From contig OX031065.1 of NCBI GenBank assembly GCA_943736015.1, positions 27,914,427 through 27,978,426 of the forward strand: a stretch of DNA of 64,000 nucleotides. Reading direction: 5' to 3'. The notes below the pieces were generated by a model. That model saw nothing but the letters and a program-made list of their open reading frames with translations. It ran no database searches and was not told the DNA's origin. Positions 3,226-44,263 of this stretch are shown one piece after another (within the stretch, counting starts at the first letter, position 1; each line of letters begins with the position of its first letter). Made by a program: the position numbers and the translations under genes. Origin of the DNA: Tridacna crocea (lineage: Eukaryota > Mollusca > Bivalvia > Cardiida > Cardiidae).

Positions 3226-3454
3226 GACTCTTTACCACACAAGAAAAATATAAATATGTCAATTCTGAAAGCATAATCAAGATGAAAATATGCAGGTGGC
3301 TCAAATTGTGAAATTTGTTTTTTGATAGGATACAAAACATAGTAGGACAAAGGAGAAAATGCTGGTAACCATCATTTTCTCCTTTTCCCATGATGTTTCC
3401 AAAAGGTTTTTTTCTCATGGTCATTCAATTTTGGGGTTGTGTGATAAAAGGTTT
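3226..3454 (+). repeat. P1 MITE
   Basis: Starts TTGACTCTTTACCACAC, has the full palindrome at 3345-3395, and ends in an eroded GTGTGATAAAAGG. Confidence 0.75.
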
Positions 3455-32892: not shown

Positions 32893-33363
32893 AAAGAAAC
32901 AGATTTTTTTCCCGAGACAAGAAGAATGCATTATTCTACCAAGACATTAGACATGAAAACTTGTCATTAACAGACACAGACATTTGTATCCACAGCTTTT
33001 CTTTCTGCATTCAAATCAGTCTATTAATCAACACTTGAAAACATCATATGCGACAGACAAATCGACAGACAAATCGCTCATTCTGAGAATCTTTTCTTTT
33101 TTGTCAACATCTTTTATATAGTATTTTCCTCTCACCATCTTCCATTCAGCAATTCCTACATTTATGATCTTCACAATATTTACAATGCTAGTCATTTAAT
33201 TCCAAGGTGTTCATAATGAAAAACTCAAACAGTCCAAGGTACCAACAAATTGCTCATTTTGATCACTGTTTCCATTTCTCTCAATACATGTATTCTCTAA
33301 AGCTTTTCTACACCTCTTACTATTTACCAGCCTTTGTCACTATCTTTTTAATCTTTTTTCTGC
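32893..33363. other. Unassigned
   Basis: No supported feature. CGACAGACAAAT is duplicated at 33050-33072. Confidence 0.4.
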
Positions 33364-33592
33364 TTAACCCATTAACACACACCAAAATTTCAGATCTAAC
33401 CAAATTGAAAGCATTTGCAGACGACAATTTCAAAGTGGCTTTAATGATGTAATTATGCTTTGATAGGGTAGAAAACATTGTGGGAAAAGGAGAAAATGCT
33501 GGTTACCAGCATTTTCTCCTTTTCCCACAATGTTTTCAAAAGGTTTTTTCTTCAGGGTCGTTAAAAGTCATCATTGTGTGGTAAAGACTTAA
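33364..33592 (+). repeat. P1 MITE, well preserved
   Basis: TTAACCCATTAACACACACC to GTGTGGTAAAGACTTAA with a perfect palindrome. Confidence 0.85.
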
Positions 33593-34425
33593 AAAGTGAA
33601 ATGGAAACTTTCGTGCAGATAGTAAAAAACAACTTTCGCCATTTCAAAATTAACTTTTGGGGGAAGGGATATCTTCTTTATATTGGACAATATAGATCTA
33701 TGATGTTCTGTGCAGTCTGATCTTGATCTACACTGTCCACAAAAGGCCAATGAATCATGCTCAGCAGTTTAGGGGATGTTCTGATTATGATTTAGCTAAA
33801 CATATCACATAATATAGCATGTTGAAACTGTATTTAACCTTAGTGCATTAAAGGAACAAGAGGGGTTTCATTCCAGAAATGATCCTGACAGACACATTGT
33901 TATTCTTGTCCAGAATGTCTCAACAAAACAGATAGTTTTGGTCAAAGATCAGATTGCACATTTTGTGTTGTCTGATCTTTATTTTTATATTATCTGCTAG
34001 AACAACTTAGTTTGTAACAGGCATGTTATTGGTTTACGCAGCCGTGATTTCAAGTAAACATCAGGCCAGATAAACAAAACTTGGTGTATTTTCTATCAAA
34101 ATTACAAATTTTTGCCTCCAAAAACAAACTTTTAGAATATGAATATGAAATTTTCAACACATGTAATTCTTTGTACTTTGAAAATTTGGATATATAAACC
34201 AACCTAGATTCACACATAACAAAACATTATGACAAATGCAGGAAAAATTGCATGCTTGTCACAAGCATTTTGTCCTTTTGCTGCAATATTTCTCAAAAAG
34301 TCATCTAGTGCAACATGATAAACAATGTCTGTAGGTGGTAATAAGTAATTTTTTTTTATGGCTCATTAGTGCAGGTAAACAACATTATTGTTAGACTGTA
34401 GAACACGATCATCCCTGCATTTTGA
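33593..34425. other. Two H3 copies and unassigned sequence
   Basis: H3 copies are at about 33640-33780 (GTGCAGTCTGATCTTGATC) and 33930-33995 (GTCAAAGATCAGATTGC). A worn P1 core is at about 34225-34320. The remainder is unassigned. Confidence 0.5.
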
Positions 34426-34653
34426 ACTTTTTACCAAACAACATTTTAGACTGCGTAAAATTGAGAGCATTAATTATGCACATGACAAAATTAATGTTAC
34501 TAATAATTCAAATTTGTTTTATGAAGGGAAGAAATCATTGTGGGAACGGGAGAAAATGCTGGTTACTGGCATTTTCTCCTTTTCCTACAATGATTTCAAA
34601 AGGCTTCTTTTTACAGGGTCGTTTAAATTTGAGATTGTGTAGTAAAGGGATAA
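34426..34653 (+). repeat. P1 MITE
   Basis: CTTTTTACCAAACAACA to GTGTAGTAAAGGGATAA. It abuts the next copy at a mutated TTAA. Confidence 0.75.
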
Positions 34654-34859
34654 CTCTTTACCAAACAACAAACGTTTTGAATGGACCAAATTCAAAGCAT
34701 CTGCAGACAACAAATTAAATCTTGGTATTATGATGATATCCAATTTTGATAGGGCAGAAAATATTGTGGATAAAGGATAAAATGCTGGTAACCAGCAATT
34801 TTTCCTTTTCCCACAATGTTTTCCATAGGGTTCTTTCTCAGTTTTGTTGAAAGGTGGGA
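34650..34859 (+). repeat. P1 MITE, left part split by the LINE
   Basis: Left arm, palindrome and part of the right arm, up to GAAAGGTGGGA. The copy resumes at 41372 with AAAGGTGGGATTGTGTGG. Confidence 0.85.
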
Positions 34860-35008
34860 ATGAATGAATGAATGAATGTTGTTTTATGGCGCATCGACAA
34901 CTTTGGTCATTTAGCGCGCATATCTATGTTAAAAGATAATAAACGTGGAGTTGTTTAAACTGAATAAAGTTTGAATGACAATAAAAGAATTAAATTAAGA
35001 AAATTTAA

Positions 35009-35160
35009 TGCATAAAGGGCTTCATCGAGTTACAGGGCAATCCCTATATAGTCAAATGTTTTAAATGATAAGAACTGAATTAAGAAGAGTGCATAAAGGG
35101 CATTTATCGAGTTACAGGGCAATTCGTATATACTCAAAAGTTTTAAATGATAAGATTTAA
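35009..35160. repeat. Tandem duplication in the LINE 3' UTR
   Basis: The block GCATAAAGGGC, GAGTTACAGGGCAAT and GTTTTAAATGATAAG occurs twice, about 83 bp apart. A second pair, CTCCAATGGGATAAGAT, is at 35371 and 35411. Duplicated 3' UTR words are often the part recognised by the LINE reverse transcriptase, but that role here is an inference. Confidence 0.6.
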
Positions 35161-35527
35161 GAATGTGATAAAAAGGTTTAAACTCAATGCTGGTTTGATA
35201 AAAAGAAGTTTTTTAAATGAAAAAGAAATATGTGTCATTTATAATGTGCATAAAATATGATATTGAGTGGCTGGGCATTCCCTGCCTACTCAACAGTTTT
35301 AGATTAAAAGGTAAGACTGATAATATTGTTTTTCCTTGGAAATGAGGTTAAAATTGATAAAGATTGGAGCCTCCAATGGGATAAGATACTCCCATTAAAG
35401 AGGTCCTGTCTCCAATGGGATAAGATGTCTCCAAGAGAGCCAATCCTCCCATTAAGGAGATGCAAACTGAATATTTATGAAGTAAAAAATGTTGTAAAAG
35501 GATGGGTAAGAAACTCAAGAGTAAATA

Positions 35528-38500
35528 TCACAGTTTATTGTAAATGTCAATCTCCTTTATGAAAGCGATAATAGATTCAACGCTGACAGAATCAAAAAGA
35601 TTTTTCAAACTATCTACGTTGAAATATTTTGAACGAACTGGCTGAAAGTCAATGCAATCTAGTAGGATATGTTTTACAGAAAAGGTTGCATTGCATGGTA
35701 TACATTCAGGGGCATCATCTCTTGTCAAGAGCCAGGAATGTGTGATGCGTGAATGGCCAATTCGAAGTCGTGCAATTATCACTTCTTCTTGACGAACGGA
35801 TCTGTAAACGGGATACCATTCACCAAGGGATGGTTTAACTGAATGCAGTTTATTGAAAATATCAGCATCCCACTGGGATTGCCAAGAAGATTGGATATGT
35901 GATAAAACGGAGGCTTTAAAATCAGTGTGTGGAACTTTAAAATCTGAAATGGGAAGGTTAAGTGCAGATTTAGCAGACCTATCGGCATTTTCATTGCCTT
36001 TGATGCCTACATGACTTGGAAGCCAGCAGAACACCAATCTATTCTTAGAAGAAATTTGTGAGATCCTTTCAAGTAAACTGCAGATTAAAGGATTCTCAAG
36101 TCGTTGATTTGAAAGGGCCTGTAATGTTGACAAAGAGTCTGAAAAGATAATAAAACGGTTGGAATTAGAACTTTCAACTAGATTAAGGGCCAGATCTACT
36201 GCTTTAATTTCAGCAGAGAAGATAGAGGAGTTGTTTGGAAGGCGGCATTTTAAGCTTCTTTGTCCATAAACAGCGGCAGCTGCTACAGAATTGCCTTCTT
36301 TAGATCCATCTGTATAGATGGGTTTGAAGGAAAAATAATGTTCCTTTATCTCGTTGTATCTAGCATGAAATACAGTTCTATCCGTGACAGACTTTTTGTC
36401 AGATGCAAGGTCAAATCTGAATTCTGCACTGTTTAGTGTCCATGGAGGGATTTCAGAGATTTTATAGTCGGCAATAGACTCGGTGTCTATGCCAAGGTTA
36501 TCTACAATGGGCTCCATGCGGATACCAAATGGAGGAATAACATTTGGTTTCCTTTCAAAAAGAGATTTATATTCAGGTTTAAAGACAACGTTATGAGTTG
36601 GATTAAAACGATTCGACTTAAGTTTTAAAATATATTGAAGTGAGAGTTTTTCTCTCCTGTAAGAAAGAGAAGGTTCATTAGCCTCAACATAAAGACTATT
36701 GACGGGAGAAGTTCTGAAAGCTCCAAGTACAAGACGTAGACCCTCGTGATGTATAGAATCGAGAATTTTCAGATAGGATTTACGGGCCGATCCGTATACA
36801 ACAGATCCATAGTCCAACTTGGAGCGAACTAAAGACCGATAAAGCCGCAAGAGGACTTTACGGTCTGCTCCCCATTCAGAATGAGCCACAACCTTAAGAA
36901 GATTAAGAGCCTTCTTGCACTTCTTTTTAAGTGCAGTGATGTGAGGAAGGAAAGAAAGCTTTCTGTCAAAGATGACTCCAAGAAATTTAAACTCAGAAAC
37001 GACTTCAATTTTAGTTTTGTCCAGATAAAGTTCAGGATCTGGATGAACACCTCGTAGATTACAGAGGTGCATGCACTTAGTTTTGGACTTCGAAAATTTG
37101 AAGCCATTTTCATCAGACCATGTTTGCAATTTGTTGAGACATTGCTGAAGTTGTCTCTCAATAATGTTCATATTTCGAGATCTGAAGCATATGACGAAGT
37201 CATCAACATAGAGGGAACAGTCTACACCAGGACAGATAGCTTTGACTATACTGTTTATTTTCACACTGAAAAGTGTAACAGAGAGAATACATCCTTGGGG
37301 TACACCCATCTCCTGTTCACGGGCTCCCGAGACAGTATTACCAACTCGGACGCGGAAAAGACGTTCATCCAAGAAGGCTGAAATAAAAAGAGGAAGACGG
37401 CCTCGAAGACCAAAGTCATGCAAGTCTTTCAGAATTCCGTATTTCCAAGTTGTATCGTAAGCGCTTTCAAGGTCGAAAAAGACAGATACTACATGCTGTC
37501 TATTAATAAAGGCTTCTCTGACAAAGGTTTCAAAGCGGACAAGATGATCTATGGTGCCGCGCTGGCGACGAAATCCACTCTGTACATCAACGATGAGGTT
37601 GTTCTTCTCTAAAAACCAGACAAGCCTGTCGTTGACCATACGTTCTAGGGTCTTGCAGAGACAACTAGTAAGAGCTATTGGCCGATAGTTAGCCGGGTCA
37701 CTAGCATCTTTGCCAGGTTTTGGGATAGGAATGACAAGTGCCTCCCGCCAGGATGCAGGAAAATCACCTGACTGCCAGATATCATTAAAATTATCAAGTA
37801 AAACTGAGAGGGAAGTAAAAGGTAAGTGTTTTAAAAACTGGTAATGAACTTTATCTGGGCCAGGAGAAGAATCATGAGCTTTATTCAGAGCAGATTTTAA
37901 TTCTTTAAAAGTGAAGAGTTTATTATAATGCTCTGAATTCGAAGACTTGAAATTAAGCTTTTTCTTTTCTTCTCTAGCTTTATTCCTCTGAAACTTTTCT
38001 GAATAGTTTGCAGAGGAAGACTTTTTGCAAAAGGTGTTAGCAAGAGCATCAGCTATATCCTGGGGAGATTCCAACGAAGTATTGTTAACCTCAAGGTGAC
38101 TAACAGGGGTCTGGCCTTTGCCATTGATCTTTCTGATCATATCCCAGGTTTTTTTAGTAGTAGTTCTACTATTCAACTTAGAGACATATTGTCTCCAGGC
38201 CTTGCGCTTACTTTCTTTAATGGTACGACGGGCTTTTGCCCTGGAAATACGGAATAAGTTAAGATTGTCTTTGGTAGGCCTGAGATTAAATTTTCTAAGG
38301 GCCTGTTTTCTGTCTCTGACAGCCTGTTTACAATCATCATTGTACCAAGGCTTGTCAGGTCGTTTTGGGTTTGTCGAGGTCTGAGGGACGGACTGTTTAG
38401 CTGCATCAATTAATAGGGAAGTGAAAAGTTTTGCAGGATCATCGCAATTTCCAAATTTATCATGTGTAATGGTCTGTTCACATAGGGTTTCAAATTTATT

Positions 38501-39262
38501 CCAATTTGCTTTGGAAAGCTTCCATTTCTGCGGTCGTACACTGCTGGACGGTTGTGTAGATGAAAAGATAATGGGGAAGTGATCACTTCCACACAAATCC
38601 TCAGTCACTTTCCAAGTAAAATTGGGAAGTAAGACTGGGCTGCATAATGTTAAATCAATGGAAGAGTAAGATCCAGTTGCTGGATGCAAGTAGGTTTTGG
38701 ATTTGTTATCATTCATGAAAGACAGAGAGTTATTCGAAATGAAGTTTTCTAACTGTAGACCTCTCTGGTTGGTGTCATTGCAACCCCACATAACATTGTG
38801 ACCATTAAAGTCCCCAGCTAGAATATAGGGGGATGGCAATTGGGAAATGAGATCATTCAGATTGGTCTCATTGATAGGTGTGCTTGGGGGGAGGTATACA
38901 GAACACAGTGTAACAGCACTGTGTAAAGATAACCTGACGGCAACAGCTTGCAAGTTTGTATTTAAAGAGATAACTTTGTGAGGAATGTTGTTGTTAACAA
39001 CAATAGAAACACCACCTCTGGCTTTTTCGCCTTCGGTAAAGATCCTGTTGTAAATAGAATGATATTTTATAGTGATATCATCCTCCTGTTTAAGGAAGGT
39101 TTCTTGCAAACAAACAGCAACTGGTTTGTTATCATTGATTAAAAGTGAAAGTTCGTCAAAGTTTGACTTCAGACCTCGACAATTCCACTGGATTATGGTA
39201 TTCATAGTGCATGAGGAAAGTATAAAAACTAAAATAAAAAATGAGGCCGTAAACCAATGCAT
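35528..39262 (-). CDS. LINE ORF2: endonuclease, reverse transcriptase, RNase H
   Basis: 1244 codons from the first in-frame ATG. A second start at residue 20 (39205; MNTIIQWNCRGL) matches the usual beginning of the APE-type endonuclease, and the 19 residues before it are hydrophobic. Endonuclease motifs seen are WNCRG, LQETFL, GDFNGHN and SDHFPI. The reverse transcriptase follows, with PGPDKV, NYRPIALTS, GFRRQRGTIDHL, FDLESAYD, GVPQGCILSV and the catalytic YVDD. RNase H has YTDGSK, the E of SAEIKAVDLAL, FSDSLSTLQAL and ENADRSAKSAL, so all four acidic positions are present. Near the C-terminus a CX2CX7HX4C knuckle (CIPC ... HILLDC) is intact. The protein nicks target DNA and primes cDNA synthesis on it. 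No stop or frameshift was found. Confidence 0.93.
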   Translation of the reverse strand: MHWFTASFFILVFILSSCTMNTIIQWNCRGLKSNFDELSLLINDNKPVAVCLQETFLKQEDDITIKYHSIYNRIFTEGEKARGGVSIVVNNNIPHKVISLNTNLQAVAVRLSLHSAVTLCSVYLPPSTPINETNLNDLISQLPSPYILAGDFNGHNVMWGCNDTNQRGLQLENFISNNSLSFMNDNKSKTYLHPATGSYSSIDLTLCSPVLLPNFTWKVTEDLCGSDHFPIIFSSTQPSSSVRPQKWKLSKANWNKFETLCEQTITHDKFGNCDDPAKLFTSLLIDAAKQSVPQTSTNPKRPDKPWYNDDCKQAVRDRKQALRKFNLRPTKDNLNLFRISRAKARRTIKESKRKAWRQYVSKLNSRTTTKKTWDMIRKINGKGQTPVSHLEVNNTSLESPQDIADALANTFCKKSSSANYSEKFQRNKAREEKKKLNFKSSNSEHYNKLFTFKELKSALNKAHDSSPGPDKVHYQFLKHLPFTSLSVLLDNFNDIWQSGDFPASWREALVIPIPKPGKDASDPANYRPIALTSCLCKTLERMVNDRLVWFLEKNNLIVDVQSGFRRQRGTIDHLVRFETFVREAFINRQHVVSVFFDLESAYDTTWKYGILKDLHDFGLRGRLPLFISAFLDERLFRVRVGNTVSGAREQEMGVPQGCILSVTLFSVKINSIVKAICPGVDCSLYVDDFVICFRSRNMNIIERQLQQCLNKLQTWSDENGFKFSKSKTKCMHLCNLRGVHPDPELYLDKTKIEVVSEFKFLGVIFDRKLSFLPHITALKKKCKKALNLLKVVAHSEWGADRKVLLRLYRSLVRSKLDYGSVVYGSARKSYLKILDSIHHEGLRLVLGAFRTSPVNSLYVEANEPSLSYRREKLSLQYILKLKSNRFNPTHNVVFKPEYKSLFERKPNVIPPFGIRMEPIVDNLGIDTESIADYKISEIPPWTLNSAEFRFDLASDKKSVTDRTVFHARYNEIKEHYFSFKPIYTDGSKEGNSVAAAAVYGQRSLKCRLPNNSSIFSAEIKAVDLALNLVESSNSNRFIIFSDSLSTLQALSNQRLENPLICSLLERISQISSKNRLVFCWLPSHVGIKGNENADRSAKSALNLPISDFKVPHTDFKASVLSHIQSSWQSQWDADIFNKLHSVKPSLGEWYPVYRSVRQEEVIIARLRIGHSRITHSWLLTRDDAPECIPCNATFSVKHILLDCIDFQPVRSKYFNVDSLKNLFDSVSVESIIAFIKEIDIYNKL

Positions 39263-39277
39263 TTTAAAATAGACTGG

Positions 39278-40840
39278 TTAAGATTTAATTACAGATGTCT
39301 CGGCTTTGGATGATTGCCAAGCGTCAAAATCCTTGTTCCAAAGATCTTTGGAAGTGGACCAGATATAGGCTTCTGAATCTGAAGCCTCACCTTCCAGATT
39401 TTCAGTATCTGCATCCATGTCCTCTAGCTCCGAAAATCTGTTGGAGGTAGGGACAGGATCATTTACTTTCATTGTAATTTCACAAGATCCTTGGTTATCT
39501 CTAGATTGTGATGTGGACTTGGAAGAAGACCTTTTTTGAGGTCGGGGTGTATGATTAGGATTGTCTTTAGATGAGACGTTGGATTTGGTTGTAGGCTGTG
39601 AAGATGGAGGTTGTGGTTTCTTTGGTGTCTGTTGTGAAGGGGGAGATGGTTTTGAAGCTTTTTTTGAAGAGATATTTTGTGAGGAGGTAGATGGTTTTGA
39701 GGTTTTTTGTGAAGAGATACTTTGAGAGTTTGTGGGTTTTGAGGGTACAGAAGAAGTTTTGTTTGTTTCAGATGTAGGCCGAGTCTGAGTAGGTGTTGCA
39801 ACTTGGACATTGGGGATGAGAGCTTTCAGTTCATCAGTCATTTCAGGAAACTTTTGGAGAAGTTTTTTAGCCAATAGTTCGCAGGTTGGACAATGTCCAT
39901 TTGCAGGCAAAGGAGAAGCAACATTTGCATATGTTGTACTTTTGCTCAACAGAGCCTGATCAGACCTGCGTTTTTCAACTACTTTCCTGGCTTCTAAGAA
40001 GGTAATATTCTCCTTAAACTTGATTGACAGGATTTCTTTCTCATCCTTCCAAACTGAACATTCTTTGGAATATGTAGGATGAGAAGACTTGCAATTGACA
40101 CAAAGTGGGGGGTTATTGCAAGCCTTTTGGTCATGTTCTTCCCCTTCAAAAGCACACCTGGGACAAACAGGTGTGCTTCTGCAGTTACTTTCATGATGGC
40201 CGTACCGTTGACACCTATAACAGCGCAACGGATTAGGCACATAAACATCGACCTTGACTGATTGAAATCCTACTTTAATTGAAGTTGGAAGAGTTGGAGT
40301 AGAGAATGTCAAGATGTAGGTATGTGTATCTCTACGAATGCCATTCCTGAGAACTGAAATTCTCTTCACATCAGACACAGCCTGGTTTTTAAGATTTGAT
40401 TTGATTTCCTCCAAAGAGTCACAGAAGCTTAATTCTTTGCATCTAATGACTCCTTTGGAGGTGTTTAGGGTCTTGTGAGGAAAGATTTTGACATCAAGAT
40501 TGAAAAGTTTCTTGTGTCCAAGTAGGTTTCTGACTTGTTGTTGCGAGAAGCACTCAACAAGCAAAGTTTCATTTTTAAGCTTTTTAACAGATTTTGGGGT
40601 TCCTAAAATTGCTGAGATGGATTTTTCAATAATAAAAGGAGAAAGTTTTGTAACAGGTTTGGAAGAGTCAATAGATTCAATTACTAAAAAACGGGCAAAT
40701 GTTGTTGAAGATCTTGAATATTCTGACTCTGAATCAGAGTCGGAGAGTACACGCTTGGCCTTTTTTTGAGAAGCCATAGTTGTTGTTGAATATTCATCAC
40801 CGATGTTCCCCACCCGCCTCGGAGCCCAACAAGGGGACAT
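39278..40840 (-). CDS. LINE ORF1: nucleic-acid-binding protein with zinc knuckles
   Basis: 520 codons from the first ATG. The ATG at residue 22 (40777; MASQKKAKRVLSDSDS) is an equally likely start because the charged, serine-rich tail begins there. An RRM-like region (about residues 45-200) precedes three zinc knuckles near residues 205-265: CYRC with H and C (CX2CX4HX4C), CPRC (CX2CX6HX4C) and CVNC (CX2CX3HX6C). The C-terminal third is low-complexity, rich in S, T, K, P and Q, and ends in an acidic stretch. ORF1 proteins of I-group LINEs bind the element RNA and act as chaperones. The TAA stop at 39280-39278 lies in the same frame as ORF2. Confidence 0.9.
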   Translation of the reverse strand: MSPCWAPRRVGNIGDEYSTTTMASQKKAKRVLSDSDSESEYSRSSTTFARFLVIESIDSSKPVTKLSPFIIEKSISAILGTPKSVKKLKNETLLVECFSQQQVRNLLGHKKLFNLDVKIFPHKTLNTSKGVIRCKELSFCDSLEEIKSNLKNQAVSDVKRISVLRNGIRRDTHTYILTFSTPTLPTSIKVGFQSVKVDVYVPNPLRCYRCQRYGHHESNCRSTPVCPRCAFEGEEHDQKACNNPPLCVNCKSSHPTYSKECSVWKDEKEILSIKFKENITFLEARKVVEKRRSDQALLSKSTTYANVASPLPANGHCPTCELLAKKLLQKFPEMTDELKALIPNVQVATPTQTRPTSETNKTSSVPSKPTNSQSISSQKTSKPSTSSQNISSKKASKPSPPSQQTPKKPQPPSSQPTTKSNVSSKDNPNHTPRPQKRSSSKSTSQSRDNQGSCEITMKVNDPVPTSNRFSELEDMDADTENLEGEASDSEAYIWSTSKDLWNKDFDAWQSSKAETSVIKS

Positions 40841-41371
40841 GATCTGGGGAAACCTAACTCAGATCATGACAAGGATACATCGGTGATATACTCGAAGTGA
40901 AAGGGCTAGACTGGACAAATGTAGGCCCGCAGAATGTCATACCAAGCATAGACTGTCTTTAGGCATTTACAAGTGTCAATCAAACACCAAGCTTTCACCC
41001 GATTAGCCCATGAGCCACCGCCTTCTAGGGTATTGACATACAGAACTGATGGCAGAGAAATGGTGTATCTGTGTACGTATGTGTGAAAGAAAACAAAGAG
41101 AAACACCCTAGGGCACGGCGTGACCAGCCGGTTGATCAGAACGGGCCTTTCTGACCCCTCGTTTAGTTCAGTTCAAGGCCGAAGTGGTGTGTTGTGTAAA
41201 CAAAGCTATCAAAGGGCCGAGCTCTGAATCCACTCAACCACCAGGATCCCGTCATCAAACGACACGAGTTGCAGCCTACGGCAAACAGGCAGGCACAGTG
41301 GGGGGGTCTTACCCCTTCTATAGTGCGACAGCTGAGCTATTTCTATCCCCCCGCCCAGCTGGGGGCAGTTA
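40841..41371 (-). promoter_or_regulatory. LINE 5' untranslated region and presumed internal promoter
   Basis: About 530 bp, clearly richer in G+C and CpG than its surroundings, starting AACTGCCCCCAGCTGGGCGG on the minus strand. Full-length LINEs of this group carry their own promoter here. I see no TATA box. Short upstream ATGs are present. Confidence 0.6.
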
Positions 41372-41399
41372 AAAGGTGGGATTGTGTGGTAAAGAGTTG
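41372..41399 (+). repeat. P1 MITE, right end of the copy split by the LINE
   Basis: AAAGGTGGGATTGTGTGG then TAAAGAGTTGA completes the copy begun at 34650. Confidence 0.85.
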
Positions 41400-41545
41400 A
41401 AGATGTTTTCTATGAGAAACAGTGGAAAACATTGGTAGAAACAGAGAAATCGCAGATCACCATTATTTTCTCCCTTTTCCAGAATGTCTTCAAAAGCCAT
41501 CTATCTCAAGGCCATTTCCACTCGGCATTGTGTATTTCTCTGCGG
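41400..41545 (-). repeat. P1 MITE, eroded
   Basis: GAAAACATTGGTAGAAACAG and a weak palindrome. Confidence 0.5.
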
Positions 41546-41554
41546 GTTTGGTCT

Positions 41555-41705
41555 GGGTTCTGCATAGCTCAGTCAGGTAATGTTGTTGGAATAGCAATCT
41601 TTAAAACCTGGGTTGGATCCTTATCTCTTCTGTGTGTCTTTGGGCAAGGCGTTCCAGAATACCATCCAAGTAATAATGGAGCCAAGGAAACAAGTGGTTT
41701 GTCAC
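41555..41705 (+). repeat. tRNA-derived SINE
   Basis: GCATAGCTCAGTCAGGTAAT (A box) and AACCTGGGTTGGATCC (B box) form a tRNA-like head, followed by GTCTTTGGGCAAGGCGTTCC, a phrase typical of mollusc SINE bodies. The tail is unclear. Confidence 0.6.
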
Positions 41706-41756
41706 TGTGATAATAATTATGACTAGAATACAGTTGAAGACAAAGTATTCAGATAT

Positions 41757-41802
41757 TTTGCATTCTGTGCAAACTGATCTTGATCTACACTGTCCACAAA
41801 AG
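41757..41802. repeat. H3 hairpin, half
   Basis: GTGCAAACTGATCTTGATC and TACACTGTCCACAAAAGG. Confidence 0.6.
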
Positions 41803-41826
41803 GTTAGTGAGTCGAGTTTAGCAGCC

Positions 41827-42055
41827 TTAACTCTTAATCACACAACAAAATTTTAGCCCTGTCTAAAGTGAAAGCATTTGCAGATGAAAATTTCAGTGTG
41901 TCTCAAATAGTGCAATTTTTCTTTGACAGGGGAGAAAACTTTGTGGGAAAAGGAGAAAATGCTGGTTACCAGCATTTTCTCCTTTTCCTACAATGTTTTC
42001 AAAAGGCTTCTTCCCCAGAGGTGTTAAAAGTAGGGATTACGTGGTAAAGAATTAG
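41827..42055 (+). repeat. P1 MITE
   Basis: TTAACTCTTAATCACACAAC to ACGTGGTAAAGAATTA, with a good palindrome. Confidence 0.8.
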
Positions 42056-42255
42056 AGCATTATTTTCCCTTTCACAAAATCATCATAATGCAAATCAGTC
42101 TTACCTAAGCCAGACAGAATTCTCCTTCAATGTTAATAAAACACTCAAAAATTACACCATTATTTACTTACGACAACTGATTCCAACCACATTTACAATC
42201 ATTATCCCTCAGAAACATTATCAAAGCACCAAAATTCTTAGCAGACTTTACCTTT

Positions 42256-42460
42256 ACTCTTAACCAAATGACATAATTCCAAGCTGGTCCAAAATGAAAG
42301 CAATTGCAGACGTCAAAATCAATGTGACTCAAGAATTGAAATTTGGGTTGAGAAGGGTTGAAAATAATGTGCGAAAAGGAGAAAATGCTGGTCACCAATG
42401 TTTTCAGAAGGCTTCTTCCACAGAGTCATGAAAACCCGTGATTGTTTGGTAAAGGATTAA
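42256..42460 (+). repeat. P1 MITE with core deletion
   Basis: ACTCTTAACCAAATGAC to GTTTGGTAAAGGATTAA. Confidence 0.7.
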
Positions 42461-42477
42461 TGATGAATCCAACTTCA

Positions 42478-42598
42478 GCTGGTTACCTGCACTTTCTCCT
42501 TTTTCCCACGATGTTTTCTTCCCTTTCCAAAAAATTCAATTTTTGTGTCACATAAATTTTGTTGTCTGCAAATGCTTCCAATTTGGACTAGTCCAAAA
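42478..42598 (-). repeat. P1 MITE, left part, split by HL-3
   Basis: Palindrome arm and GTCTGCAAATGCTTCC arm, up to GGACTAGTCCAAAA. It resumes at 42753 with GATTCTTGGTAAAGGGTTAA (to 42781). Confidence 0.7.
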
Positions 42599-42752
42599 CA
42601 AGAGCTGTTACTGAATATGACTTAATACCCCAGTCAGTGCTTTGACAGAAACAGGCAATTATTTGTACATAGATGGACACATGGATAGACACACTGACGG
42701 ATGGGCTCATTCCAATATACCCGCCAAAAACATTCATTTTGCGGGGGTATAA
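42599..42752 (+). mobile_element. HL-3 element, short copy
   Basis: GAGCTGTTACTGAATATGAC at the left, ATGGATAGACACACTGACGG, and the terminal hairpin ATATACCCGCC ... GCGGGGGTATAA. It is inserted in P1. Confidence 0.7.
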
Positions 42753-42835
42753 TTATTAAAGGATTCTTGGTAAAGGGTTAATATTCTATTTCTGTGCGAG
42801 AAAGAGGCTATTAAGCCCATTTTAATCAAACAAAA

Positions 42836-44263
42836 CTTCAACAAGAGCAGCAAATTGTCGCAAGATACGCCCGTCTTACCCCAAGTTGTAAAGCTGGGGC
42901 ATGCACCGGACAAAATTCAAGTATGAAAAACAACAAAGGGCAATAACTCAAAAATAAAGCAAGCAAGAGTTGTGATTCCTGTGCACTGCACTCCCCATGG
43001 ATGAGATCTATCCACCCATGAAATTTCATAACCCTAGCTACTATAGTTTTGGAGATATGCTCCGAAAAAAAAATCAAGTATGAAAAACGACAAAGGGCAA
43101 TAACTAAAAAATTAAGCAAGCAAGAGTTATGATTCTTGTGCACTGCACACACCCTCGGTAAGATCTATCCAGCCATGAAATTTCATAACCGTAGCTAGTA
43201 TAGTTTTGGAGATATGCTCCGGACAAAATTCAAGTATGAAAAACAACAATGGGCAATAACTCAAAAATAAGCAAGCAAGAGTTATGATTCCTGTGCACTG
43301 CACTCTCCCTCGATGAGATCTATCCACCCATAAAATTTCATAACCCTAGCTAGTATAGTTTTGGAGATATGCTCCGGACAAAATTCAAGTATGAAAAACG
43401 ACAAAGGGCAATAACTCAAAAATTAAGCAAGCAAGAGTTATGATTCTTGTGCACTGCACTCCCCCTCGGTGAGATCTATCCACCCATGAAATTTCATAAC
43501 CCTAGCTACTATAGTTTTGAAGATATGCTCCGGACAAAATTCAAGTATGAAAAAAAAACAAAGGACAATAACTCAAAAATTAAGCAAGCAAGAGTTATGA
43601 TTCTTGTGCACTGCACTCCCCGTTAATGAGATCTATCCACCCATGAAATTTCATAACCCTAGCTAGTATAGTTTTGGAGATATGCTCCGGACAAAATTCA
43701 AGTATGAAAAACAACAAAGGGCAATAACTCAAAAATTAAGCGAGCAAGAGTTATGATTCTTGTGCACTGCTCTCCCCGTCAATGAGATCTTTCCACCCAT
43801 GAAAATTCATAACCCTAGCTACTATAATTTTGGAGATATGCTCCGGACAAAATTCAAGTATGAAAAACAACAAAGGGCAATAACTCAAAAATTAAGCAAG
43901 CAAGAGTTATGATTCTTGTGCACTGCACTTCCCCTTGGTAAGATCTATCCACCCATGAAATTTCATAACCCTGGCTACTATAATTTTGGAGATATGCTCC
44001 GGACAAAATTCAAGTATGAAAAACAACAAAGGGCAATAACTCAAAATTTAAGCGAGCAAGAGTTATGATTCTTGTGCACTGCACTCCCCCTTGATGAGAT
44101 GTATCCACCCATGAAATTTCATAACCCTAGCTAGTATAGTTTTCGAGATATGCTCCGGACAAAGAACTGGACGCCGCCCGCCCGCCCGCCCGGATGGCCG
44201 CCCGCCCGCCCGCCACGGGTGATCCCATAATACGTCCCGTCTTCGACTGGCGTATAAAAATGT
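42836..44263 (+). mobile_element. HL-2 Helentron/pearl-like element with a 157-bp array
   Basis: The left end is ACAAGAGCAGCAAATTGTCG then AAGATACGCCCGTCTTAC. Eight tandem units of about 157 bp follow (CCGGACAAAATTCAAGTATG, GCAATAACTCAAAAATTAAG, CTTGTGCACTGCACTCC, GAGATCTATCCACCC, TTTGGAGATATGCTCC). A GCCCGCCCGCC microsatellite is at 44170-44213. The right end is an imperfect hairpin, ATACGTCCCGTCTTCG and ACTGGCGTAT, then AAAAATG. The ATACGYCCGTCTT word at both ends, the array and the microsatellite match the pearl/HINE architecture known in bivalves. Minus-strand open frames across it follow the repeat and are not genes. Confidence 0.8.

Follow-up and report, generated by a model that had tools for sequence, protein, structure and literature searches.

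A young, apparently intact LINE inside an older MITE of Tridacna crocea is one of a family of mosaic copies

A LINE with both reading frames open lies inside a MITE in the stretch of Tridacna crocea DNA analysed here (64,000 nucleotides, hereafter the window), which raises the question of whether this copy stands out as a source element, and from what kind of family it comes. The sequence-only reading of the locus had described an apparently intact LINE, recently inserted between exact target duplications within a MITE that reads through once the LINE is removed. We followed up this reading in the window and in the genome assembly (1.05 Gb in 31 contigs, one assembled individual). The LINE and its host comprise the following features, given in window positions:

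34651..34859, plus strand: left part of the host P1 MITE, 209 of 229 nt (flank join, alignment to P1 copies)
34850..34859, no strand: target-site duplication (TSD), copy 1, AAAGGTGGGA (exact match to the copy at 41372-41381)
34860..41371, minus strand: full-length LINE, 6,512 bp (APE endonuclease, reverse transcriptase, RNase H; other copies in the genome)
34860..34878, minus strand: 3' tail of CATT repeats (tandem array 34858-34878, 5.2 units)
34879..35527, minus strand: 3'UTR (copies have the window type or types 4-9% different, independent of ORF1 type)
35528..39205, minus strand: ORF2, 1,225 aa from MNTIIQWN, with endonuclease, reverse transcriptase (RT) and RNase H (ORF, Pfam)
35960..36319, minus strand: RNase H domain (PF00075), residues 987-1106, 3' of the RT (Pfam, 1.3e-11)
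36968..37726, minus strand: reverse transcriptase domain RVT_1, residues 518-770 (Pfam, 4.4e-38)
38567..39193, minus strand: APE-type endonuclease domain, residues 29-237 of the 1,249-codon frame (Pfam matches to Exo_endo_phos and Exo_endo_phos_2, combined)
39278..40777, minus strand: ORF1, 499 aa, A type, with three CCHC-like clusters seen by eye (open reading frame, copy comparison)
40778..41371, minus strand: 5'UTR, A type; its 5' end carries an inverted repeat, CCCCC...GGGGG (copy comparison)
41372..41381, no strand: TSD, copy 2, AAAGGTGGGA (exact match to the copy at 34850-34859)
41382..41401, plus strand: right part of the host P1 MITE, about 20 nt (flank join, alignment to P1 copies)

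The duplication is 10 bp long and identical on both sides of the LINE, as had been claimed for the two junctions. With this TSD, a tail at its 3' end and no LTRs found in a by-eye reading of the window LINE, the element belongs to the non-LTR class. Because of the TSD, the 3' tail and the domain content, we infer that the LINE would have entered the MITE by target-primed reverse transcription, the established insertion mode of LINEs. Among other copies, a TSD was recognisable in 16 of the 17 inspected by eye (L028 with one mismatch, L012 unclear), the number of CATT repeats differs, and the outermost five or six 5' bases of the interval 34860-41371 are not shared. The fetched copies include 5'-truncated ones, with matches starting at element position 3284 (L013) and 939 (L019). 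Site-specific insertion was rejected, as the 3' flanks of 19 copies, compared by eye, contain no common target sequence. A search for known structured RNAs in positions 33000-43000 at a permissive threshold gave 39 matches, all under the families' gathering scores, and none was retained; the miRNA-family matches among them fall on MITE palindromes outside the LINE, and weak matches to FAM13A-AS1_1 and SNORD50 inside it look like chance.

Joining the flanks without the LINE and with one copy of the TSD gives a P1 unit of 229 nt, to which 27 other P1 copies of the window align with a coverage of 90% or more at 68-77% identity, three of them gap-free. The join is spanned by 43 of the 138 P1 matches in the window (matches are pieces, and an inner palindrome matches twice). 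Restoration of a P1 unit at this point is far beyond chance, and both the location of the LINE inside a MITE copy and the read-through of its host are thereby borne out. Inspected by eye, the majority of the 23 long P1 rows start TTAACYCWTTACC and finish GGTAAAGAGTTAA, or close variants of these, with TTAA at both ends and terminal inverted repeats, so that P1 is a putative piggyBac-like MITE; it also has an inner near-perfect palindrome of 67 nt and many diverged copies within the window. The window is crowded with P1 in both orientations, its 138 matching pieces in 64 kb representing a smaller number of copies. Since P1 copies are 23-32% different from the host copy and the LINE carries only 4 private substitutions, the LINE is far younger than its host.

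The ORF2 frame runs uninterrupted from stop to stop over 1,249 codons (35528-39277) in the same frame as ORF1, with one stop codon between them; an alternative in-frame ATG at 39262 gives an ORF2 of 1,244 aa. Both ORFs are thus open, as had been reported, and with the Pfam domains present the copy is apparently intact. Endonuclease and reverse transcriptase domains in ORF2, whose best PDB match is LINE-1 ORF2p (3.8e-23), identify the element as a LINE, and RNase H after the RT (Pfam) places it in the RNase H-bearing group. Every catalytic motif sought was found (QWNCRG, LQETF, AGDFN, GSDHFP, VFFDLESAYD, LYVDDF, YTDGSK, SAEIKA, FSDSL and NENAD); we take these ten to carry the catalytic residues of endonuclease, RT and RNase H that the sequence-only reading had described as present. 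ORF1 gave no Pfam domain at E 0.001 and one chance-level match at E up to 1. In its CCHC ORF1, its endonuclease-RT-RNase H ORF2 and its simple-repeat 3' tail, the element resembles other APE-type LINEs with RNase H, presumably the I group. Its RNase H domain and CATT tail set it apart from L1, which is not known to have either. From the ORF1 stop to the first in-frame ATG of the ORF2 frame there are 15 nt (window 39260-39280), in the same frame; this spacing, kept in 10 of the 11 copies whose two ORFs are open (L011 differs), could have a bearing on reinitiation or readthrough.

To place the copy within its family, loci were chosen by RT or ORF1 similarity as the best-scoring candidates of each search, which makes the sampling biased. 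Near-identical copies, which the sequence-only reading had proposed to seek, were found. All 40 copies scored (the best 40 of 897 first-look candidates) have an identity of 99% or more over the RT and RNase H DNA (2 kb), and a full-length search gave at least 17 further copies of nearly full length with identities of 96% or above (the best 21 of 2,316 first-look candidates); the closest among the copies fetched, L016, has 25 mismatches in 6,509 bases (99.6% identity). In an alignment of 21 copies, some of them truncated or cut by the fetched stretch, only 4 substitutions over 6,464 bases are private to the window copy, which together with the exact TSD agrees with a recent insertion. ORF1 is open in 16 of these 21 copies, ORF2 in 15 and both in 11, window included; within these open sets, the window copy has two private amino acids in ORF1 (16 copies) and a single one in ORF2 (15 copies), at residue 2. 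A protein search with 435 residues from the N-terminal part of ORF2 listed 97 matches; in 65 of them by hand count, window included, the match is free of stops and belongs to an open ORF2 frame of 1,241 aa or longer. The earlier view of this copy as a good candidate source element therefore holds in that it is intact, recent and has close relatives, but at least 64 others have a full-length open ORF2, and nothing marks the window copy as the source. Judged by its sequence, it is plausibly a member of a mobile family.

That family carries at least two 5' types, A and B, on one RT-RNase H core. Typing of the 5' half over ORF1 in the 40 RT-matched copies (best 40 of 897) gave 31 B, 6 A (window included) and 3 untyped (L013, with a match from 3284; L062, with no match in the stretch; L067, with 3' parts only), L049 and L063 being typed on part of the segment. 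The B-type 5' half is about 65-70% identical to that of the window, and over its N-terminal two thirds the window's ORF1 has diverged deeply from the B type, the one that most RT-matched copies carry. Twenty of the 40 copies were compared at full length and the other 20 over 1.1 kb; in 200-base windows, 14 of the 20 compared at length are 63-82% identical across the 5'UTR and ORF1, after which identity rises stepwise to 97-100%, within one zone:

38572..39772, minus strand: A/B transition zone, element positions 1600-2800 (identity to B copies goes in steps from 80-82%, with 63-65% just before, to 97-100%)

Between the window copy and L012, for example, the RT-RNase H windows are 99-100% identical and the 5' windows (element 0-1600) 64-79%. 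Searches with the ORF1 segments returned 438 (A) and 473 (B) first-look candidates, and the best 40 of each, which were scored, contain copy clusters at 98-100% for both types. Older parents, with an A or B 5' half and their own diverged ORF2, were absent from the best 40 matches per search, which are all close family (91-100% and 95-100%). The window copy belongs to a recombinant class: the nearest relatives of its 5' half are in part not those of its 3' part. The CCCCC...GGGGG inverted repeat of the 5' terminus (window 41347-41365) is present in A and most B copies, although what follows it is only about 65-75% similar between the types. A 45-nt tandem repeat (2.1 units, window 39632-39724) in the Ser/Pro-rich part of ORF1 lies near the start of the A/B identity rise and is a possible preferred switch zone.

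A contrast of this kind could also arise without recombination, if ORF2 were merely much more conserved than ORF1 and the 5'UTR, and LINE ORF1 is indeed often less conserved than ORF2. We regard this explanation as next to impossible here, given the synonymous sites of a single pair of copies. Between the window copy and L012, each with both ORFs open, 164.6 of 212 synonymous sites differ in ORF1 codons 1-330, which is saturation, whereas dS is 0.006 in ORF2 after codon 250; the remainder of ORF1 (dS 0.33) and ORF2 codons 1-250 (dS 0.135) lie between. Because the contrast sits at synonymous sites, selection can be told apart from recombination, and differential selection was rejected as its source. 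Even between two A copies, the window and L031, dS is higher in ORF1 (0.33) than in ORF2 after codon 250 (0.083), and the endonuclease part of L031 is closer to the B copies L012 (dS 0.038) and L014 (0.032) than to the window (0.135). The no-recombination explanation is further contradicted by conflicting region trees and by a copy with a single crossover.

This copy, L026, was compared with L016 and L014 as reference types. It agrees with B at 429 of the 437 diagnostic sites that precede element position 1500, and at almost every site from there to 1902 (two exceptions occur in other B copies as well). From 1987 it is A-like, as are all 29 diagnostic sites that it has in the endonuclease region; it carries a single crossover. 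Crossovers have occurred repeatedly in the family. L030 and L031 combine an A ORF1 with a B-like endonuclease region, and L021, L022, L025 and L027 have one mosaic pattern in the endonuclease region, of which L024 has a variant; because the pattern is common to all four, they do not represent four events.

Site patterns and trees agree with repeated exchange. Seventeen of the 21 aligned copies (L019, L027, L030 and L031 were left out as incomplete) yield 611 two-state informative sites. Over ORF2 and the 3'UTR, 2,121 of 6,670 site pairs are incompatible, with clustering in space (0/1000 shuffles as low); the 5' 2.2 kb alone has incompatibility without clustering (136/1000 shuffles as low). Mean r2 is 0.69 for sites less than 500 bp apart and declines to 0.07 at 3-3.5 kb, the short classes being weighted by many ORF1 A/B sites. 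An RT tree built from 35 copies requires no fewer than 6 changes of ORF1 type versus 11.3 in shuffles, so that the types still cluster; branches are weak (6 of 32 starred, the starred ones alone forcing 2 type changes), and an AU test rejects a single A clade at a moderate p of 0.027. On the 3'UTR tree (20 copies, L013 left out as untyped), 5 type changes versus 5.3-5.4 in shuffles leave no association, and a single A clade is rejected with p far below 0.001 (AU test). All four pairings of ORF1 and 3'UTR type occur among these 20 copies:

A ORF1 with window-like 3'UTR: window copy, L016
A ORF1 with other 3'UTR: L015, L019, L028, L031
B ORF1 with window-like 3'UTR: L010, L012, L026
B ORF1 with other 3'UTR: the remaining 11 B copies

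Two further explanations have to be set against this mosaic evidence. Near-identical repeats are a classic setting for misassembly, and the mosaics could be collapsed or chimeric repeat copies; such an artefact is very improbable, as B and A 5' halves sit on the same core at 31 and 6 of 40 loci on many chromosomes, and the mosaic loci have different TSDs where inspected and often open frames. Equally far-fetched as an account of the family is the earlier picture of an ordinary single-lineage young LINE that is intact by chance: the anatomy and youth of the window copy were confirmed and the picture is true of that copy, but the mosaic evidence makes it incomplete for the family.

We are confident that the locus is best explained by a young, intact LINE that entered a much older TTAA-type MITE by target-primed reverse transcription and that belongs to a large, recently active family of mosaic copies. 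In this family, one near-uniform RT-RNase H core has been recombined with at least two deeply diverged 5' modules (5'UTR and most of ORF1, A and B), and likewise with two or more types each of the endonuclease region and of the 3'UTR. Given the mosaicism, the crossovers probably arose mainly from switching of the LINE RT between co-expressed A and B RNAs at insertion. Since both types are young and 16 of the 17 copies have a TSD, parental A and B RNAs probably coexisted, as template switching needs.

Template switching, DNA gene conversion and RNA/genomic heteroduplex repair would leave patterns that our sequence data do not separate. Gene conversion or ectopic recombination among scattered copies at the DNA level, homogenising ORF2 and not the 5' half, would also be expected to give the stepwise identity rise and the patchy endonuclease region and 3'UTR, through overlapping conversion tracts, and it would be favoured by the local clustering of LINE copies, some of them abutting or nested. 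We nevertheless consider it unlikely, as conversion should involve defective copies too, and many mosaic copies have both ORFs open (11 of the 21 examined). For mouse L1, DNA recombination, RNA/genomic heteroduplexes and RT strand switching were considered as mechanisms, and the first was discounted on this same open-ORF ground in the part of that study consulted (Sookdeo et al., 2013, PMC3600994).

As for the arrangement of copies in the genome, about ten matches lie within 0.2 Mb at C15:33.72-33.93 Mb and five within 0.08 Mb at C6:13.33-13.41 Mb, with A and B types mixed at both; genome-wide there are roughly 0.9 first-look candidates per Mb. These pile-ups are possibly a trap locus (piRNA cluster, heterochromatin) or local duplication. 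At L012, L018 and L019, a LINE copy abuts or interrupts another of the same family, and the flanks of L018 correspond to element positions up to 3588 and from 3590, a self-nested insertion. LINE pairs lie 11,783 bp apart at C11:1123585/1135368 and 11,782 bp apart at C16:24221160/24232942, and a spacing of 19,835 bp occurs twice at C2:58050820/58070655/58090490; these regular spacings are probably tandem repeats of larger LINE-containing units.

Recombinant LINE families are already known in kind; what is unusual here is how deep the contrast runs and how many mosaics are intact. The mouse L1 families Tf and Gf, as described in the consulted sections of Sookdeo et al. (2013, PMC3600994, where rat is also cited), are recombinant, with exchange in the 5'UTR, ORF1, ORF2 and 3'UTR and in most, not all, cases between co-active families. 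The window family similarly unites parts of different lineages in one element; as far as that text allows comparison, it differs in that copies which are young at the same time have 5' halves with saturated synonymous sites in ORF1. In CR1/L2 elements (Jockey superfamily), reticulate evolution of ORF1 with a tree-like ORF2 was inferred over 448 elements of old lineages, according to the excerpts used (Metcalfe and Casane, 2014, PMC4120745). Exchange of ORF1 between lineages is common to both systems, but here the copies are very young and from one genome, and ORF2 and the 3'UTR recombine too. For non-LTR elements of Neritimorpha and other Gastropoda, the grouping of species differs between ORF1 and ORF2 trees (PMC11203168), resembling the conflict between region trees in the window family; that study, in its main text as consulted, invokes conservation and lineage sorting, and the word "recombination" is absent. 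LINE-1 chimeric insertions have small RNAs, Alu and mRNAs as partners in the portion of the work cited (Law and Burns, 2026, PMC13174262); there as here, LINE RNA would recombine with another RNA during insertion, whereas the partners here are sister LINE lineages. Beyond PMC4120745 and PMC11203168, we recognised no within-family exchange outside mammalian L1 in a literature represented mostly by titles and abstract openings.

LINE lineages are usually handled as clonal trees; in this family, subfamily trees built on the RT alone would lump elements whose other halves deeply diverge. We tentatively suggest, with odds slightly below even, that the family behaves as a recombining population in which one RT-RNase H core has spread across several 5' backgrounds. 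LINE lineages active at the same time, their ORF1s deeply diverged, would swap segments so frequently that linkage is almost gone within about 3 kb, and the spread of the core would resemble the sweep of a favoured allele under sexual reproduction, with the part of "sex" taken by RT template switching among RNAs packaged together. Two questions follow for the biology of the family: why one ORF2 core dominates several ORF1 backgrounds, and whether swapping of the 5'UTR and ORF1 helps escape from host silencing. With both 5' types young and many intact mosaics present, the family is a natural experiment on the frequency of RT template switching.
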